NCBI RefSeq assembly: GCF_014642835.1
Contig: NZ_BMJA01000001.1
Span: 124,001 to 188,000 of the forward strand
Source: Dyella nitratireducens
Lineage (GTDB): Bacteria > Pseudomonadota > Gammaproteobacteria > Xanthomonadales > Rhodanobacteraceae
DNA length: 64,000 nucleotides
Reading direction: 5' to 3'
Position 1 is the first letter of the stretch. Each line of letters starts with the position of its first letter. The translations under genes were made by a program, and so were the position numbers. Positions 7,342 to 52,268 of the stretch are shown one piece after another. The notes under the pieces are model-generated. The model made no database searches and was not told the origin of the DNA. It was given only the letters and a program-made list of their open reading frames with translations.

Positions 7342-7422
7342 CCGTCATTCCCGCGAAAGCGGGAATCCATGTTGCTCTGATGTATCCCTGAAAATGGATT
7401 CCCGCTTTCGCGGGAATGACGG
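7342..7422. repeat. 27-bp perfect inverted pair of ATTCCCGC-type REPs
   Basis: Bases 7342-7368 and 7396-7422 are exact reverse complements. Each arm is itself a hairpin, ATTCCCGC-GAAA-GCGGGAAT, so the region folds either as two small hairpins or one long one. This palindrome type (GTCATTCCCGCGAAAGCGGG) is widespread intergenically in proteobacteria. A decayed copy with the same spacer words lies at 18541. Confidence 0.88.
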
Positions 7423-10667: not shown

Positions 10668-10743
10668 CGTAGGTTGGGGTGCAAACCCCAACGTTGCCAT
10701 GTCTGCAGGTATGGGGATGTTGGGGTTTGCACCCCAACCTACG
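10668..10743. repeat. Inverted pair of GTAG-type REPs (copy A2)
   Basis: The left arm CGTAGGTTGGGGTGCAAAC and the mirror right arm GTTTGCACCCCAACCTACG enclose a short spacer. It sits between convergent genes (aldehyde dehydrogenase and AraC regulator). Bases 10739-10741 form the TAG stop of the AraC-type gene, taken from the GTAG head of the right arm. Confidence 0.88.
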
Positions 10744-12997: not shown

Positions 12998-13072
12998 CGT
13001 AGGTTGGGGTGCGAACCCCAACATCACCATCGGTGCAGAATCCCAACGTTGGGGTTTGCACCCCAACCTACG
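12998..13072. repeat. Inverted pair of GTAG-type REPs (copy A3)
   Basis: CGTAGGTTGGGGTGCGAACC on the left and its near mirror on the right, ending CCAACCTACG. It lies between convergent genes, with the right GTAG end 2 nt from the stop codon of the YdcF-family gene. Confidence 0.88.
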
Positions 13073-20717: not shown

Positions 20718-20728
20718 TTACAGATATT

Positions 20729-20891
20729 AGAGCCTGTTTGCGATTTCGGCGTAGTTTGTGTTGAGTTTGAGCAGTCGTCAGGGGGGCGTACGTGGCGCAG
20801 CGCCAGACTGGCCGTCTGGTCAAGCCTCGTGCGGCCGCATGACGGCTGCTCAGACTCAACACGGGCTGCGGGGAGATCGTAAGCAGGCTCT
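20729..20891. repeat. 163-base inverted-repeat element B1 with core CAGACTGGCCGTCTG
   Basis: Bases 20729-20796 pair with 20824-20891 without gaps: of 68 columns, 52 are Watson-Crick, 10 are G.T and 6 are mismatches, with no A.C. A central hairpin CCAGAC-TGGCC-GTCTGG (20803-20819) caps it. It fills the gap between the rlmD stop codon and the CYTH start; the last stem base is part of the rlmD stop. No coding capacity is evident. The same core occurs twice in the element at 51541-51831. Strand asymmetry suggests the plus-strand RNA is the folded form. Confidence 0.85.
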
Positions 20892-22204
20892 CATCTGCGT
20901 TCGAACAGCGCAATGGATTCCACGTGCGCCGTATGCGGGAACATGTCCATGACACCCGCTGACTTCAAGCGGAAACCGTGTTGATTCACCAGAATGCCGG
21001 CGTCGCGCGCCAGCGATGCAGGGTGACATGAGACGTACACAATACGTGCCGTCTCTTTGTGCGGCAGATATTCCAGCACCTTGTCCGCACCGGCACGGGG
21101 TGGATCGAGCAGCAGTTTGTCCCAGGGCTTGCGCGCCCAATCGGTGCCGCGCTGATCCTCGAACAGATTGGCCACGTGGAAACGCGCATTGTTCAACCCA
21201 TTGCGCGCGGCGTTATCCGCGGCACGTGCCACCAGACCATGCTCGCCTTCCACGCCGGTGACTTCAGCGACGCGGCGTGCCAGCGGCAAGGTGAAATTGC
21301 CCAGGCCACAGAACAGATCCAGCACGTGATCCTGTGGCTGCGGATCGAGCAGCTCGAGTGTTCGCTGCATCATGCGGCGATTCATGCCTGCATTGACCTG
21401 CACGAAATCGAGCGGCTGGAACTCCAGTTCCACATCTTGCACGCCTTCGCCGGCAGGAATGCGAAAGGCCAGGCGCGGATGTTCGGGCCATAGCGGATGT
21501 ACGCTGCTGACGCCGCCGGGTTGCAAATAGATGGCGAAACCGTGCTCCTGTGCAAACGCTACCAACTTCGCACGATCGCTCTCGCTCAGCGGCTTCAAAT
21601 GGCGAAACACCAATGCAATGGTGTCGTCACCGGCGGCGAATTCGATTTGTGCAATATCGGCTGCCGCATCCATGCTGCCGACCAGTTCACCGAGCAGACC
21701 GATCTTGGGACCAAGCGCGGGATGCACGACGTCGCAATGCACAATGTCAGCCACGAAACGCGGATTGCTTTCCTCGCGAAAACCCACCAGCACGCGCCCT
21801 TTCTTTGCCACTGCGCGTACGGACAGGCGACCCTTGCGGCGATAGCCCCAGGCTTCGTCGGTAAGCGGCGGCAGCCAGGTTTCCGGTTCCACTTTGCCGA
21901 TGCGCGCGAAGTTGTCGACCAGCACGCGCTGCTTGGCTTCGATCTGCGTGACGGCGTCCAAGTGCTGCAGTGAGCATCCACCGCATTGGCCGAAATGGCT
22001 GCAACGTGGTTCGATGCGATGCGGTGAGCGGGTGAGGATCTCCAGCGTTTCCGCCTCGTCGAAATGGCGATGGCGCTTGCGGATGCGCAGGCGCACTTGC
22101 TCACCGAGCAGGGCACCGCTGACGAAGACGGTTTTGCCGTCAATGCGGGCCACACCCCGGCCGTCGTGACTCAGATCGGTAATGGAGGCTTCGAACTCGT
22201 TCAT
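20891..22204 (-). CDS. rlmD: 23S rRNA (uracil-1939-C5)-methyltransferase
   Basis: SAM-dependent enzyme making m5U1939 in 23S rRNA. The 437-aa protein has an N-terminal TRAM domain (1-60), a 4Fe-4S cluster site CSHFGQCGGC near 67-76 with a fourth Cys near 156 (HCDVVHP), and a C-terminal Rossmann domain with LDLFCGLGNFTLPLA near 295, DPPRAG near 360 and the catalytic VSCHPASLARD near 388. It is monocistronic, just downstream of a terminator, and its stop codon touches inverted-repeat element B1. Confidence 0.95.
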   Translation of the reverse strand: MNEFEASITDLSHDGRGVARIDGKTVFVSGALLGEQVRLRIRKRHRHFDEAETLEILTRSPHRIEPRCSHFGQCGGCSLQHLDAVTQIEAKQRVLVDNFARIGKVEPETWLPPLTDEAWGYRRKGRLSVRAVAKKGRVLVGFREESNPRFVADIVHCDVVHPALGPKIGLLGELVGSMDAAADIAQIEFAAGDDTIALVFRHLKPLSESDRAKLVAFAQEHGFAIYLQPGGVSSVHPLWPEHPRLAFRIPAGEGVQDVELEFQPLDFVQVNAGMNRRMMQRTLELLDPQPQDHVLDLFCGLGNFTLPLARRVAEVTGVEGEHGLVARAADNAARNGLNNARFHVANLFEDQRGTDWARKPWDKLLLDPPRAGADKVLEYLPHKETARIVYVSCHPASLARDAGILVNQHGFRLKSAGVMDMFPHTAHVESIALFERR

Positions 22205-50817: not shown

Positions 50818-51537
50818 TCAAGCTTCCATTTCTTGTTTGCGCCACACGGACTGACCGCCCGCACTCTTGTCCAACGCATCCAGGCGCTTCAAGTGCGCGT
50901 TGACTTCTTCTTCGCTCGCACGCAACACACGCGGCCGACGCGCCAATACCAAAGGCGCAATCACTGCACGCACACCGGTGGTTTCGGTTCCGCCTTCAAA
51001 GCCGAGATCCAGCACGACCTGGCCTGACGTCATCGCCAGATAGACGTCCGCCAGCAGCTGCGCGTCGATCAAGCCGCCATGCAGATCACGCGCCGAGTTG
51101 TCGACGCCGAGGCGTTTGCACAACGCGTCGAGGCTATTGCGCTGTCCCGGATAGCGCTCACGCGCCATCAGCAGCGTATCCAGCACGTTGCAGCGATCGG
51201 CAATGCTGCCGTAATGCGCGCCCGCGCGGGCGAGTTCGGCGTTTAAGAAGCCAACGTCGAAGGCCGCGTTGTGGATGATCAGCTCGGCGTCGCCAATGAA
51301 GGCCAGAAACTCATCCACAACCTCGTGAAAGCGCGGCTTGTCGAGCAGGAATTCGTCCTCGATGCCGGTAACTGCACGCGCGCCTTCATCGATGGCTCGT
51401 TCGGGATTGAGGTAGGTTTGGTAGTGCCGGCCAGTAAGCCTGCGCTCCACCATCTCCACGCAGGCGATTTCGATCAGACGATGACCCTGGCGGACTTCAA
51501 GGCCTGTGGTTTCGGTATCGAGAACTATCTGTCTCAT
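50818..51537 (-). CDS. dnaQ: DNA polymerase III epsilon subunit (3'-5' proofreading exonuclease)
   Basis: Proofreading subunit of the replicative polymerase. The 239-aa protein has ExoI DTETTGLE at residues 7-14, ExoII HNAAFDVGFLNAEL near 98-111, and ExoIII HGGLIDAQLLADVYL near 158-172; the C-terminal tail (about 185-239) binds PolC. Paired with rnhA as in many proteobacteria, but here the genes are separated by a 291-bp inverted-repeat element whose arm begins 3 bases upstream of the ATG. No Shine-Dalgarno sequence is visible there. Confidence 0.96.
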   Translation of the reverse strand: MRQIVLDTETTGLEVRQGHRLIEIACVEMVERRLTGRHYQTYLNPERAIDEGARAVTGIEDEFLLDKPRFHEVVDEFLAFIGDAELIIHNAAFDVGFLNAELARAGAHYGSIADRCNVLDTLLMARERYPGQRNSLDALCKRLGVDNSARDLHGGLIDAQLLADVYLAMTSGQVVLDLGFEGGTETTGVRAVIAPLVLARRPRVLRASEEEVNAHLKRLDALDKSAGGQSVWRKQEMEA

Positions 51538-51540
51538 GCA

Positions 51541-51831
51541 AGGGGTGCTCTGATCCGTTTTGCGTAGGCGTCACCGGCCCTGTCTGTTCGCAGGCCGCAG
51601 GGCCATCGGCGAGGGCAGACTGGCCGTCTGTCGAGGCGATGGACCGAAGGCATGCGGACAGACAGGGCCGGCCCCTGCGTATTGAATTTGAATGATGGGG
51701 TGATGTCCAGACGGCTCGCAGGCTGCGCCGCGCGGCTTGAACAGACGGCCAGTCTGCCCTGCGCCGCGCAACACACCCTGCAAGCCGTCTGGACATCATG
51801 CCGCCTACGCAAAACGGATCAGAGCACCCCT
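51541..51831. repeat. 291-bp nested inverted-repeat element B2 between rnhA and dnaQ
   Basis: Terminal repeats 51541-51570 and 51802-51831 are 30-bp perfect inverted copies (AGGGGTGCTCTGATCCG...). Inside are two hairpins. Hairpin I (51574-51671): of 41 paired columns 31 are Watson-Crick, capped by CAGAC-TGGCC-GTCTG. Hairpin II (51702-51797): of the first 35 columns 30 are Watson-Crick, capped by the reverse-orientation core CAGAC-GGCCA-GTCTG. The whole can fold as a three-way junction. Core and flanks match element B1 at 20729. No transposase frame is present, so it looks like a non-autonomous element or a structured RNA gene. Confidence 0.88.
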
Positions 51832-52268
51832 GCTTTCCTGAATTGCTCTGCTTGCTGGCGCGCTGCCTGATCGACACGCTCATTTTCATCGTGCCCGCTG
51901 TGGCCTCGCACCCACTCCCAGCGAATCTTGTGCGGTGCTGCAGCCGCTGCCAGCCGCTGCCACAGATCCTGATTCTTCACCGGCTTTTTGTCAGCCGTCC
52001 GCCAACCATTGCTGATCCAGCGCGGCACCCATTCCTCGATTCCTTGCATCACGTAGCGGGAATCCGTCGTAAGCACTACTTGGCATGGACGTTTGAGCGC
52101 CTCGAGGGCCTGAATGGCGGCCAGCAACTCCATGCGGTTGTTGGTGGTTTGAGCCTCGCCGCCACTCAGCAAGCGCTCGGTACCTTTCGCTCTCAACAAG
52201 GCCGCCCACCCTCCCGGGCCAGGATTGCCAAGGCACGCGCCATCGGTAAACGCTTCCACTTCCGCCAC
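51819..52268 (-). CDS. rnhA: Ribonuclease HI
   Basis: Cleaves RNA in RNA-DNA hybrids during replication. The 149-aa protein has the four acidic active-site residues in [11 protein letters not shown] (Asp9), [12 protein letters not shown] (Glu near 47), TTDSRYV (Asp near 69) and ENERVDQAA (Asp near 132). The last codons (Ala-Gly-Val-Leu-stop) lie inside the right terminal repeat of element B2, so the C-terminus was probably rewritten by insertion. Confidence 0.96.

Follow-up and report, generated by a model that had tools for sequence, protein, structure and literature searches.

Introduction

The target motif of IS5 is given as YTAR in PMC10359306. For small repeated elements of bacterial genomes, PMC2229807 states that the ends of RUP resemble IS ends and that NEMIS transcripts form stem-loops. 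In this work, we analyzed a nested inverted repeat between rnhA and dnaQ in a stretch of 64,000 nucleotides from Dyella nitratireducens (hereafter the window, to which all coordinates refer). The element is very probably a non-autonomous IS5-type MITE, mobilized in trans by IS5-family transposases, that landed in the overlap of rnhA and dnaQ. As such it would be of a known kind, and its novelty lies in the double-hairpin body.

Architecture of the element

The repeat search confirmed a nested inverted repeat of 291 bp at 51541–51831 in which the outermost 30 nt of the arms are fully complementary, as the initial annotation had described, and recovered the two enclosed hairpins in opposite orientation, hairpin 1 (hp1) and hairpin 2 (hp2). 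The features of the locus are as follows.

50818–51537, minus strand: dnaQ, with its ATG 3 nt from the element; in relatives it overlaps the rnhA stop codon as ATGA (ORF layout, genus loci)
51539–51542, plus strand: left 4-bp flank, CAAG (flank analysis of anchored copies)
51541–51573, plus strand: left outer arm (terminal inverted repeat), type A1, beginning GGGTGCTCTGATCCG (repeat search; common to aligned copies)
51574–51671, plus strand: hp1, with conserved internal mismatches (repeat search, copy alignment)
51612–51631, plus strand: hp1 tip, AGGGCAGACTGGCCGTCTGT (repeat search, tip survey of copies)
51672–51700, no strand: linker between the hairpins, AT-richer, closed by a short CCCC/GGGG stem, helix 5 (fold and covariation)
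51701–51798, minus strand: hp2, with its tip inverted relative to hp1 (repeat search)
51741–51760, minus strand: hp2 tip, part of CAGACTGGCCGTCTGTTCAAGC on the minus strand (repeat search, tip survey of copies)
51799–51831, minus strand: right outer arm (terminal inverted repeat), containing the rnhA stop codon (repeat search; common to aligned copies)
51819–52268, minus strand: rnhA, with the C-terminus ...KAGVL* and its stop codon in the right arm of the element (ORF layout, comparison with genus loci)
51830–51833, plus strand: right 4-bp flank, CTGC, different from the left flank (flank analysis of anchored copies)

The outer arms (51541–51573 and 51799–51831, 33 nt) are 97% identical in the repeat search, with the outer 30 nt perfect; the arms of hp1 (51574–51608 and 51637–51671) reach 83% and those of hp2 (51701–51736 and 51763–51798) 86%. 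Both inner hairpins are ~98 bp long. They resemble each other weakly except at the tips, where 51612–51631 and 51741–51760 are perfect reverse complements of one another. The conserved end in the copy alignment is GG[AG]TGC, which sets the element core at 51543–51829, and the base outside the GG is complementary between the two sides in 97 of the 98 anchored copies.

Folded as RNA, the element has a minimum free energy of −211.3 kcal/mol, compared with −123.8 ± 5.2 in 200 shuffles (z = −16.7), none of which was equally stable. The initial description of a cruciform-capable element lacking a transposase is supported, since 291 bp is too short for such a gene; two reading frames, 92 and 130 aa long, cross the element. 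It contains no promoter-like site and one terminator-like site (0.3 in shuffles). Seven Rfam matches (MIR1151 and others) all score below the gathering score and were judged to be chance. The statement that the element belongs to no described family holds for Rfam at the gathering score and for the literature search, which returned no paper on this element; a named entry may exist in ISfinder.

Insertion site at rnhA and dnaQ

The element was initially placed between rnhA and dnaQ. It does lie between both genes, but it also covers the final 13 bases of rnhA. We compared this single site with 16 rnhA–dnaQ loci from 15 other genomes of the genus, one of which has two, and all 16 show the ATGA overlap and no element. 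The proposed recent insertion is supported only insofar as these 15 genomes have no element at this site; the 4-bp flanks, CAAG and CTGC, differ. On the coding strand, the window reads AAA–GCAG–element–CTTG–CATGAG, and locus L062 has TTGG in that position. A 4-bp target would be expected to give this layout, although its two sides mismatch here.

At the rnhA–dnaQ junction of locus L066 (genome G079), ~12 additional nt with ACACCCCTTACATG resemble the dnaQ-side element end GCACCCCTTGCATG. They may be a remnant of the element or a coincidence.

Copies and their distribution

As the initial annotation had proposed, Rhodanobacteraceae genomes were searched for further copies. The genome that carries the window (5.68 Mb in 14 contigs; hereafter the host genome) has 40 matches at E 0.001, 14 of which align over at least 223 nt, that is, the window copy and 13 further long copies. 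Across the family, with three candidates scored per genome, matches were obtained in 91 of 233 genomes (the host genome included), representing 16 of 26 genera. In the genome collection, a 24-mer of the hp1 tip matches exactly at 105 places, which by record title belong to Dyella, Rhodanobacter, Frateuria, Mizugakiibacter or MAGs of Lysobacterales/Lysobacteraceae, apart from two contigs of one "Eremiobacteraeota" MAG, one of which apparently corresponds to a contig of a genome placed in the window's genus. Within the order, the hp2 tip (≤1 mismatch) was found in 18 of 398 genomes and 5 of 98 genera, all within the window's family. Plasmid and phage collections gave no match at E 1e-5.

Eighty of the 105 hp1-tip loci contributed 51 further elements, and the resulting 151 elements comprise 132 distinct copies. 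Their flanks form 128 clusters, which suggests that most of these copies are separate insertions. As expected of a MITE, the family consists of dispersed copies with terminal inverted repeats, and filled and empty sites are seen at rnhA–dnaQ. Three end types occur on one body: A1 in 80 of the 132 copies (including the window copy), A2 in 22, and B (GGCAACGCTGATCAAG and variants) in 30.

In six shorter copies of the host genome (L003–L008, ~270 bp), the AT-richer linker that separates the hairpins is missing. In two type-B copies (L148 and L165), the inverted repeat runs past the end (CGCCAYARTTAAGG), as if they lay within another palindromic repeat.

Terminal sequences shared with IS5-family elements

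The ends of the element are shared with transposase-bearing elements of the PF01609/NF033581 type, over 12 of the first 13 nt for the window copy (type A1) and over 22–23 nt for A2. Locus L077 has a 307-aa IS5-family frame that scores 278.7 bits with NF033581 (cut-off 140); we take this transposase to resemble InsH of E. coli IS5. L077, L079, L087 and L094 each span ~0.92–1.2 kb between GGATGCTCTGA-like ends, next to which stands TTAG or CTAG. The end analysis covered 23 of 30 IS loci, the other seven having short flanks; GGATGCTCTGA stands beside the transposase in 10 of these 23 and, in five of the 10, on both sides at 1.15–1.2 kb. The IS5 end of L308 matches A1 copies such as L032 over 17 nt. 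At L305, the end that lies at IS length (1196 bp), GGATGCTCTGATCTATTCCTCGC, agrees with subtype A2 copies of the host genome at 22 of 23 nt, and a second IS5-type end 136 bp further on agrees with A2 at 23 of 23 nt. No IS5 element with a complete type-A1 end was found among the loci analyzed.

PF01609 transposases are present in 10 of 16 genus genomes, and relatives of the L077 transposase (E 1e-60) in 39 of 230 family genomes. The host genome is not among the latter; it has no PF01609, NF033581 or L077-like match at the limits used and probably harbors no resident partner transposase.

Genome G079 has 41 PF01609 matches, and several of the IS5-type ones (L079, L087, L094 and L099) contain an in-frame stop within the match; some partner copies in this genome are broken. 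The two ends of L305 (genome G173), at positions 2513 and 2649 of that locus, are each preceded by CTAA; this pair may reflect a nested element or a solo end.

Target sites

Flanks were analyzed in 103 copies. Three of them (L053, L147 and L151) had no usable outer repeat, and of the remaining 100 all but two (L148 and L165) could be anchored, which left 98. YTAR, the expected IS5 target, flanks at least one side of 66 of the 98 anchored copies and both sides of 30, though not the window copy. Identical 4-mers flank 26 of the 98 (9.0 in shuffles, maximum 17), and 52 agree at three or more of the four bases (31.8 in shuffles, maximum 44). Among the 26 copies with identical 4-mers, 25 have YTAR on both sides, mostly as the palindromes CTAG or TTAA. 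The 68 copies without YTAR on both sides include a single identical 4-mer (2.0 expected) and thus show no duplication signal, so that any such signal is limited to copies of the YTAR class, most of them with CTAG or TTAA. A duplication of 2 bp (TA only) may suit some asymmetric copies, such as TTAG/CTAC.

Pairing and covariation of the arms

Within a copy, the arms are 95.8% identical, compared with 76.2% between copies (71 type-A copies). Covariation was tested in 40 of the 132 copies (type A1, 280–292 bp), in which 97.3% of cells are paired and 64 of 98 pairs show double changes. The 366 double-change cells exceed the 81 in shuffles and the 18–50 with slid partners, the comparison with slid partners being favored by the derivation of the tested structure from the same alignment, whose copies are related by descent. 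All seven helices contribute double changes. The outer stem accounts for 51 transversion-type and 73 transition-type cells and has no wobble preference, either in these 40 copies (17 G.U and 20 A.C of 1160 cells) or in a second count (47 G.T and 60 A.C). Template copying from one arm to the other, acting on the DNA, would explain the matching arms better than stepwise RNA selection.

Several mismatches are nevertheless constant and count against pure arm-to-arm copying. In hp1, alignment columns 55 and 106 are unpaired in 35 of the 40 copies, 57 and 104 in 34, 56 and 105 in 32, and 51 and 110 in 31; at the element ends, a difference at position 6 is kept in 13 copies. The mismatches of hp2 are less constant (columns 183 and 239 unpaired in 27 of 40 copies, 186 and 236 in 26, 177 and 245 in 8). 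The inner stems had been thought to have drifted around a specially perfect outer stem. Since the hp1 mismatches are common to 31–35 of 40 copies, drift is the wrong term for hp1 and applies partially at most to hp2, and a specially perfect outer stem is not supported, as pairs co-vary in every helix. With hundreds of double changes alongside persistent mismatches, this family is well suited to testing arm-to-arm template copying against structural selection.

Orientation and a possible cis-acting RNA

The same pairing bears on a different reading, in which the double hairpin is a domesticated cis-acting RNA (or DNA) structure under selection, its transcript regulates the neighboring genes as proposed for ERIC and NEMIS, and mobility is secondary. 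Pairing kept in all helices and the conserved internal mismatches are consistent with this, as is the hp1 tip, which was found in 128 of the 132 copies (loop TGGCC in 71, TGGCT in 38) with its G.T pair in 121, in a survey whose seed allowed 5 substitutions in 13. The orientation of the copies points the same way. Based on 132 ends each of hp1 and hp2 and a crude direction call from codon usage, the adjacent gene turns its 5′ side to the hp1 end in 68 of 96 called cases and to the hp2 end in 39 of 86 (Fisher p = 0.0005). All six settings gave the same direction, five of them with p < 0.05, and tandem gene contexts split 28 to 11 (p = 0.009). Both neighbors of the window copy lie on the minus strand, and this copy follows the favored orientation.

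However, the orientation test is post hoc, and only subtype A1 falls below 0.05 by itself (17:6; A2 4:2, B 7:3). The outer stem shows no wobble preference, wobble in the two hairpins favors opposite strands (181:93 in hp1, 96:336 in hp2), the stabilities of the two transcripts are not clearly different (75 of 130, p = 0.057), and no promoter-like site was found. Nor is there an excess of ends near gene starts (59 of 264, compared with 1045 of 4956 control positions). Taken together, the orientation bias leaves a regulatory cis-RNA role possible, and we consider that such a role as the main explanation of the element is rather doubtful.

A narrower idea was dropped, namely that the elements prefer positions immediately 5′ of start codons, where folding would place a ribosome site next to the start. 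A first count had suggested an enrichment (36 of 200 ends against 144 of 1680 control positions), but the excess vanished in the recount given above, which used a codon-based caller with its own control and kept the unanchored L148 and L165 with inexact bounds; by eye, moreover, a Shine-Dalgarno-like AGGA precedes the element in a minority of the listed copies only.

Mosaic body and a shared hairpin tip

Ends and stems appear to have been exchanged around conserved hairpin tips, which is an unusual feature. We compared the window copy with the 106 of 131 other copies that are 275–300 bp long (60 A1, 19 A2 and 27 B). Median identities for A1 are 0.75–0.79 at the ends and 0.90 and 0.84 at the two tips; for A2, 0.68–0.71 at the ends, 0.64–0.65 in the hp1 stem, 0.87 at the hp1 tip and 0.97 at the hp2 tip; and for B, 0.54–0.57 at the ends, 0.84–0.94 in hp1 and 0.70–0.81 in hp2. 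The tips are thus better kept than the ends in all three types.

A tip search also returned a second kind of element in the window:

20726–20894, plus strand: single-hairpin element with ends GAGCCTGTTT and a tip as in the 51541–51831 element (tip search)

It measures 161 bp between GAGCCTG ends and is flanked by TTA and TCA. With the pattern used, GAGCCTG ends accompany the hp2-type tip at 10 of the 20 tip loci fetched, namely 7 of 12 in the host genome (L282, L284 and L286–L290), the window element at 20726–20894 among them, and 3 of 8 in relatives; the other 10 lack such ends. A tip common to elements with different ends raises the question of why part of a transposon body outlasts its ends in conservation. 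One speculative answer, which we hold to be unlikely, is that the hairpin with tip AAGGCAGACTGGCYGTCTGTCGAG / CAGACTGGCYGTCTGNTCAAGC is a functional cassette whose structure is recognized by a host factor or nuclease; carried by distinct transposon ends (GGATGCTCTGATC, GGCAACGCTGATCAAG and GAGCCTGTTT) in Rhodanobacteraceae, it would act in operons as an orientation-dependent regulatory module and would here uncouple dnaQ from rnhA.

REP-like sequences and local duplication

Since the element is palindromic and repeated, and the host genome has two Y1_Tnp matches above the cut-off and one below, a REP/BIME-type palindrome moved by a RAYT (Y1 transposase) was also considered. This origin is very improbable. 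The ends are IS5-type and the flanks YTAR, and the RAYT with the same ends that had been suggested did not appear: neither the tip nor a type-A end lies within ~1.5 kb of the three Y1_Tnp loci, and the sub-threshold one, the RAYT-like L334, instead carries GTAGGTTGGG motifs on both strands. These motifs are similar to the GTAGSTTGGGGTG hairpins at 34–108, 10668–10743 and 12998–13072 of the window, so the latter may be a REP-type family with an enzyme of its own. Another REP-like hairpin, CCGTCATTCCCGCGAAAGCGGGAATCC, with 32-nt arms, lies at 7342–7422.

That the perfect arms arose in place, when the 3′ end of rnhA was locally duplicated in inverted form, can practically be dismissed: an arm does take in the last codons of rnhA, but identical ends are present at many unrelated loci and rnhA ends in relatives without these sequences.

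Discussion

The dispersed copies, their end sequences and flank preference, the empty sites, the similar-ended IS5 relatives and the co-variation of the arms were observed directly, and actual mobilization of the element by IS5-family transposases is inferred from them. The lack of a full A1 end in the IS5 elements found, the lack of a partner in the host genome at the limits used, the broken partner copies in G079, the missing duplication signal outside the copies with YTAR on both sides and the unmatched flanks of the window copy speak against the assignment as an IS5-type MITE. In the mechanism we propose, IS5-family (DDE) transposases supplied in trans would recognize the ends and insert the element into YTAR-like tetranucleotides (CTAG/TTAA). 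In this lineage, one copy would have entered the ATGA overlap of rnhA and dnaQ, handing rnhA a new stop codon and placing an RNA hairpin cluster of ~290 nt ahead of dnaQ, and may thereby affect rnhA–dnaQ expression. The copy can be regarded as a natural experiment on translational coupling of the proofreading subunit. More broadly, Rhodanobacteraceae gain a widespread MITE family, absent from the literature searched, with candidate IS5 partners.

The closest known system is the IS5 family with its derived MITEs. The terminal repeats (GGATGCTCTGA), the YTAR flanks and the transposase-bearing relatives of ~1.15–1.2 kb are alike, whereas the body here consists of two nested hairpins instead of an evident internal deletion of an IS, and the hairpin tip (≤2 mismatches) is absent from all 34 IS loci scanned. 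RUP of pneumococcus and NEMIS/Correia are likewise small and present in many copies, but measure ~107–155 bp (PMC2229807), compared with ~290 bp and two inner arms here; RUP uses the TA targets of an IS630 element (PMC2229807), while no partner was found in the host genome of our element. ERIC/IRU (127 bp) and YPAL (168 bp) are also palindromic and co-transcribed with genes, though of other lengths than this element, and YPAL has variable duplications (3–26 bp) and internal inverted repeats (PMC2229807). The effect of ERIC depends on its orientation (PMC2229807), which recalls the orientation bias seen here. Caulobacter CIR comes near in architecture, with two long stem-loop arms, a linker and a conserved loop motif, but it is ~110 bp long, has a GANTC motif and leaves its ends unpaired (PMC2229807). 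In the element described here, by contrast, both arms sit inside an outer stem, and TGGCC and TGGCT are the most frequent loops.
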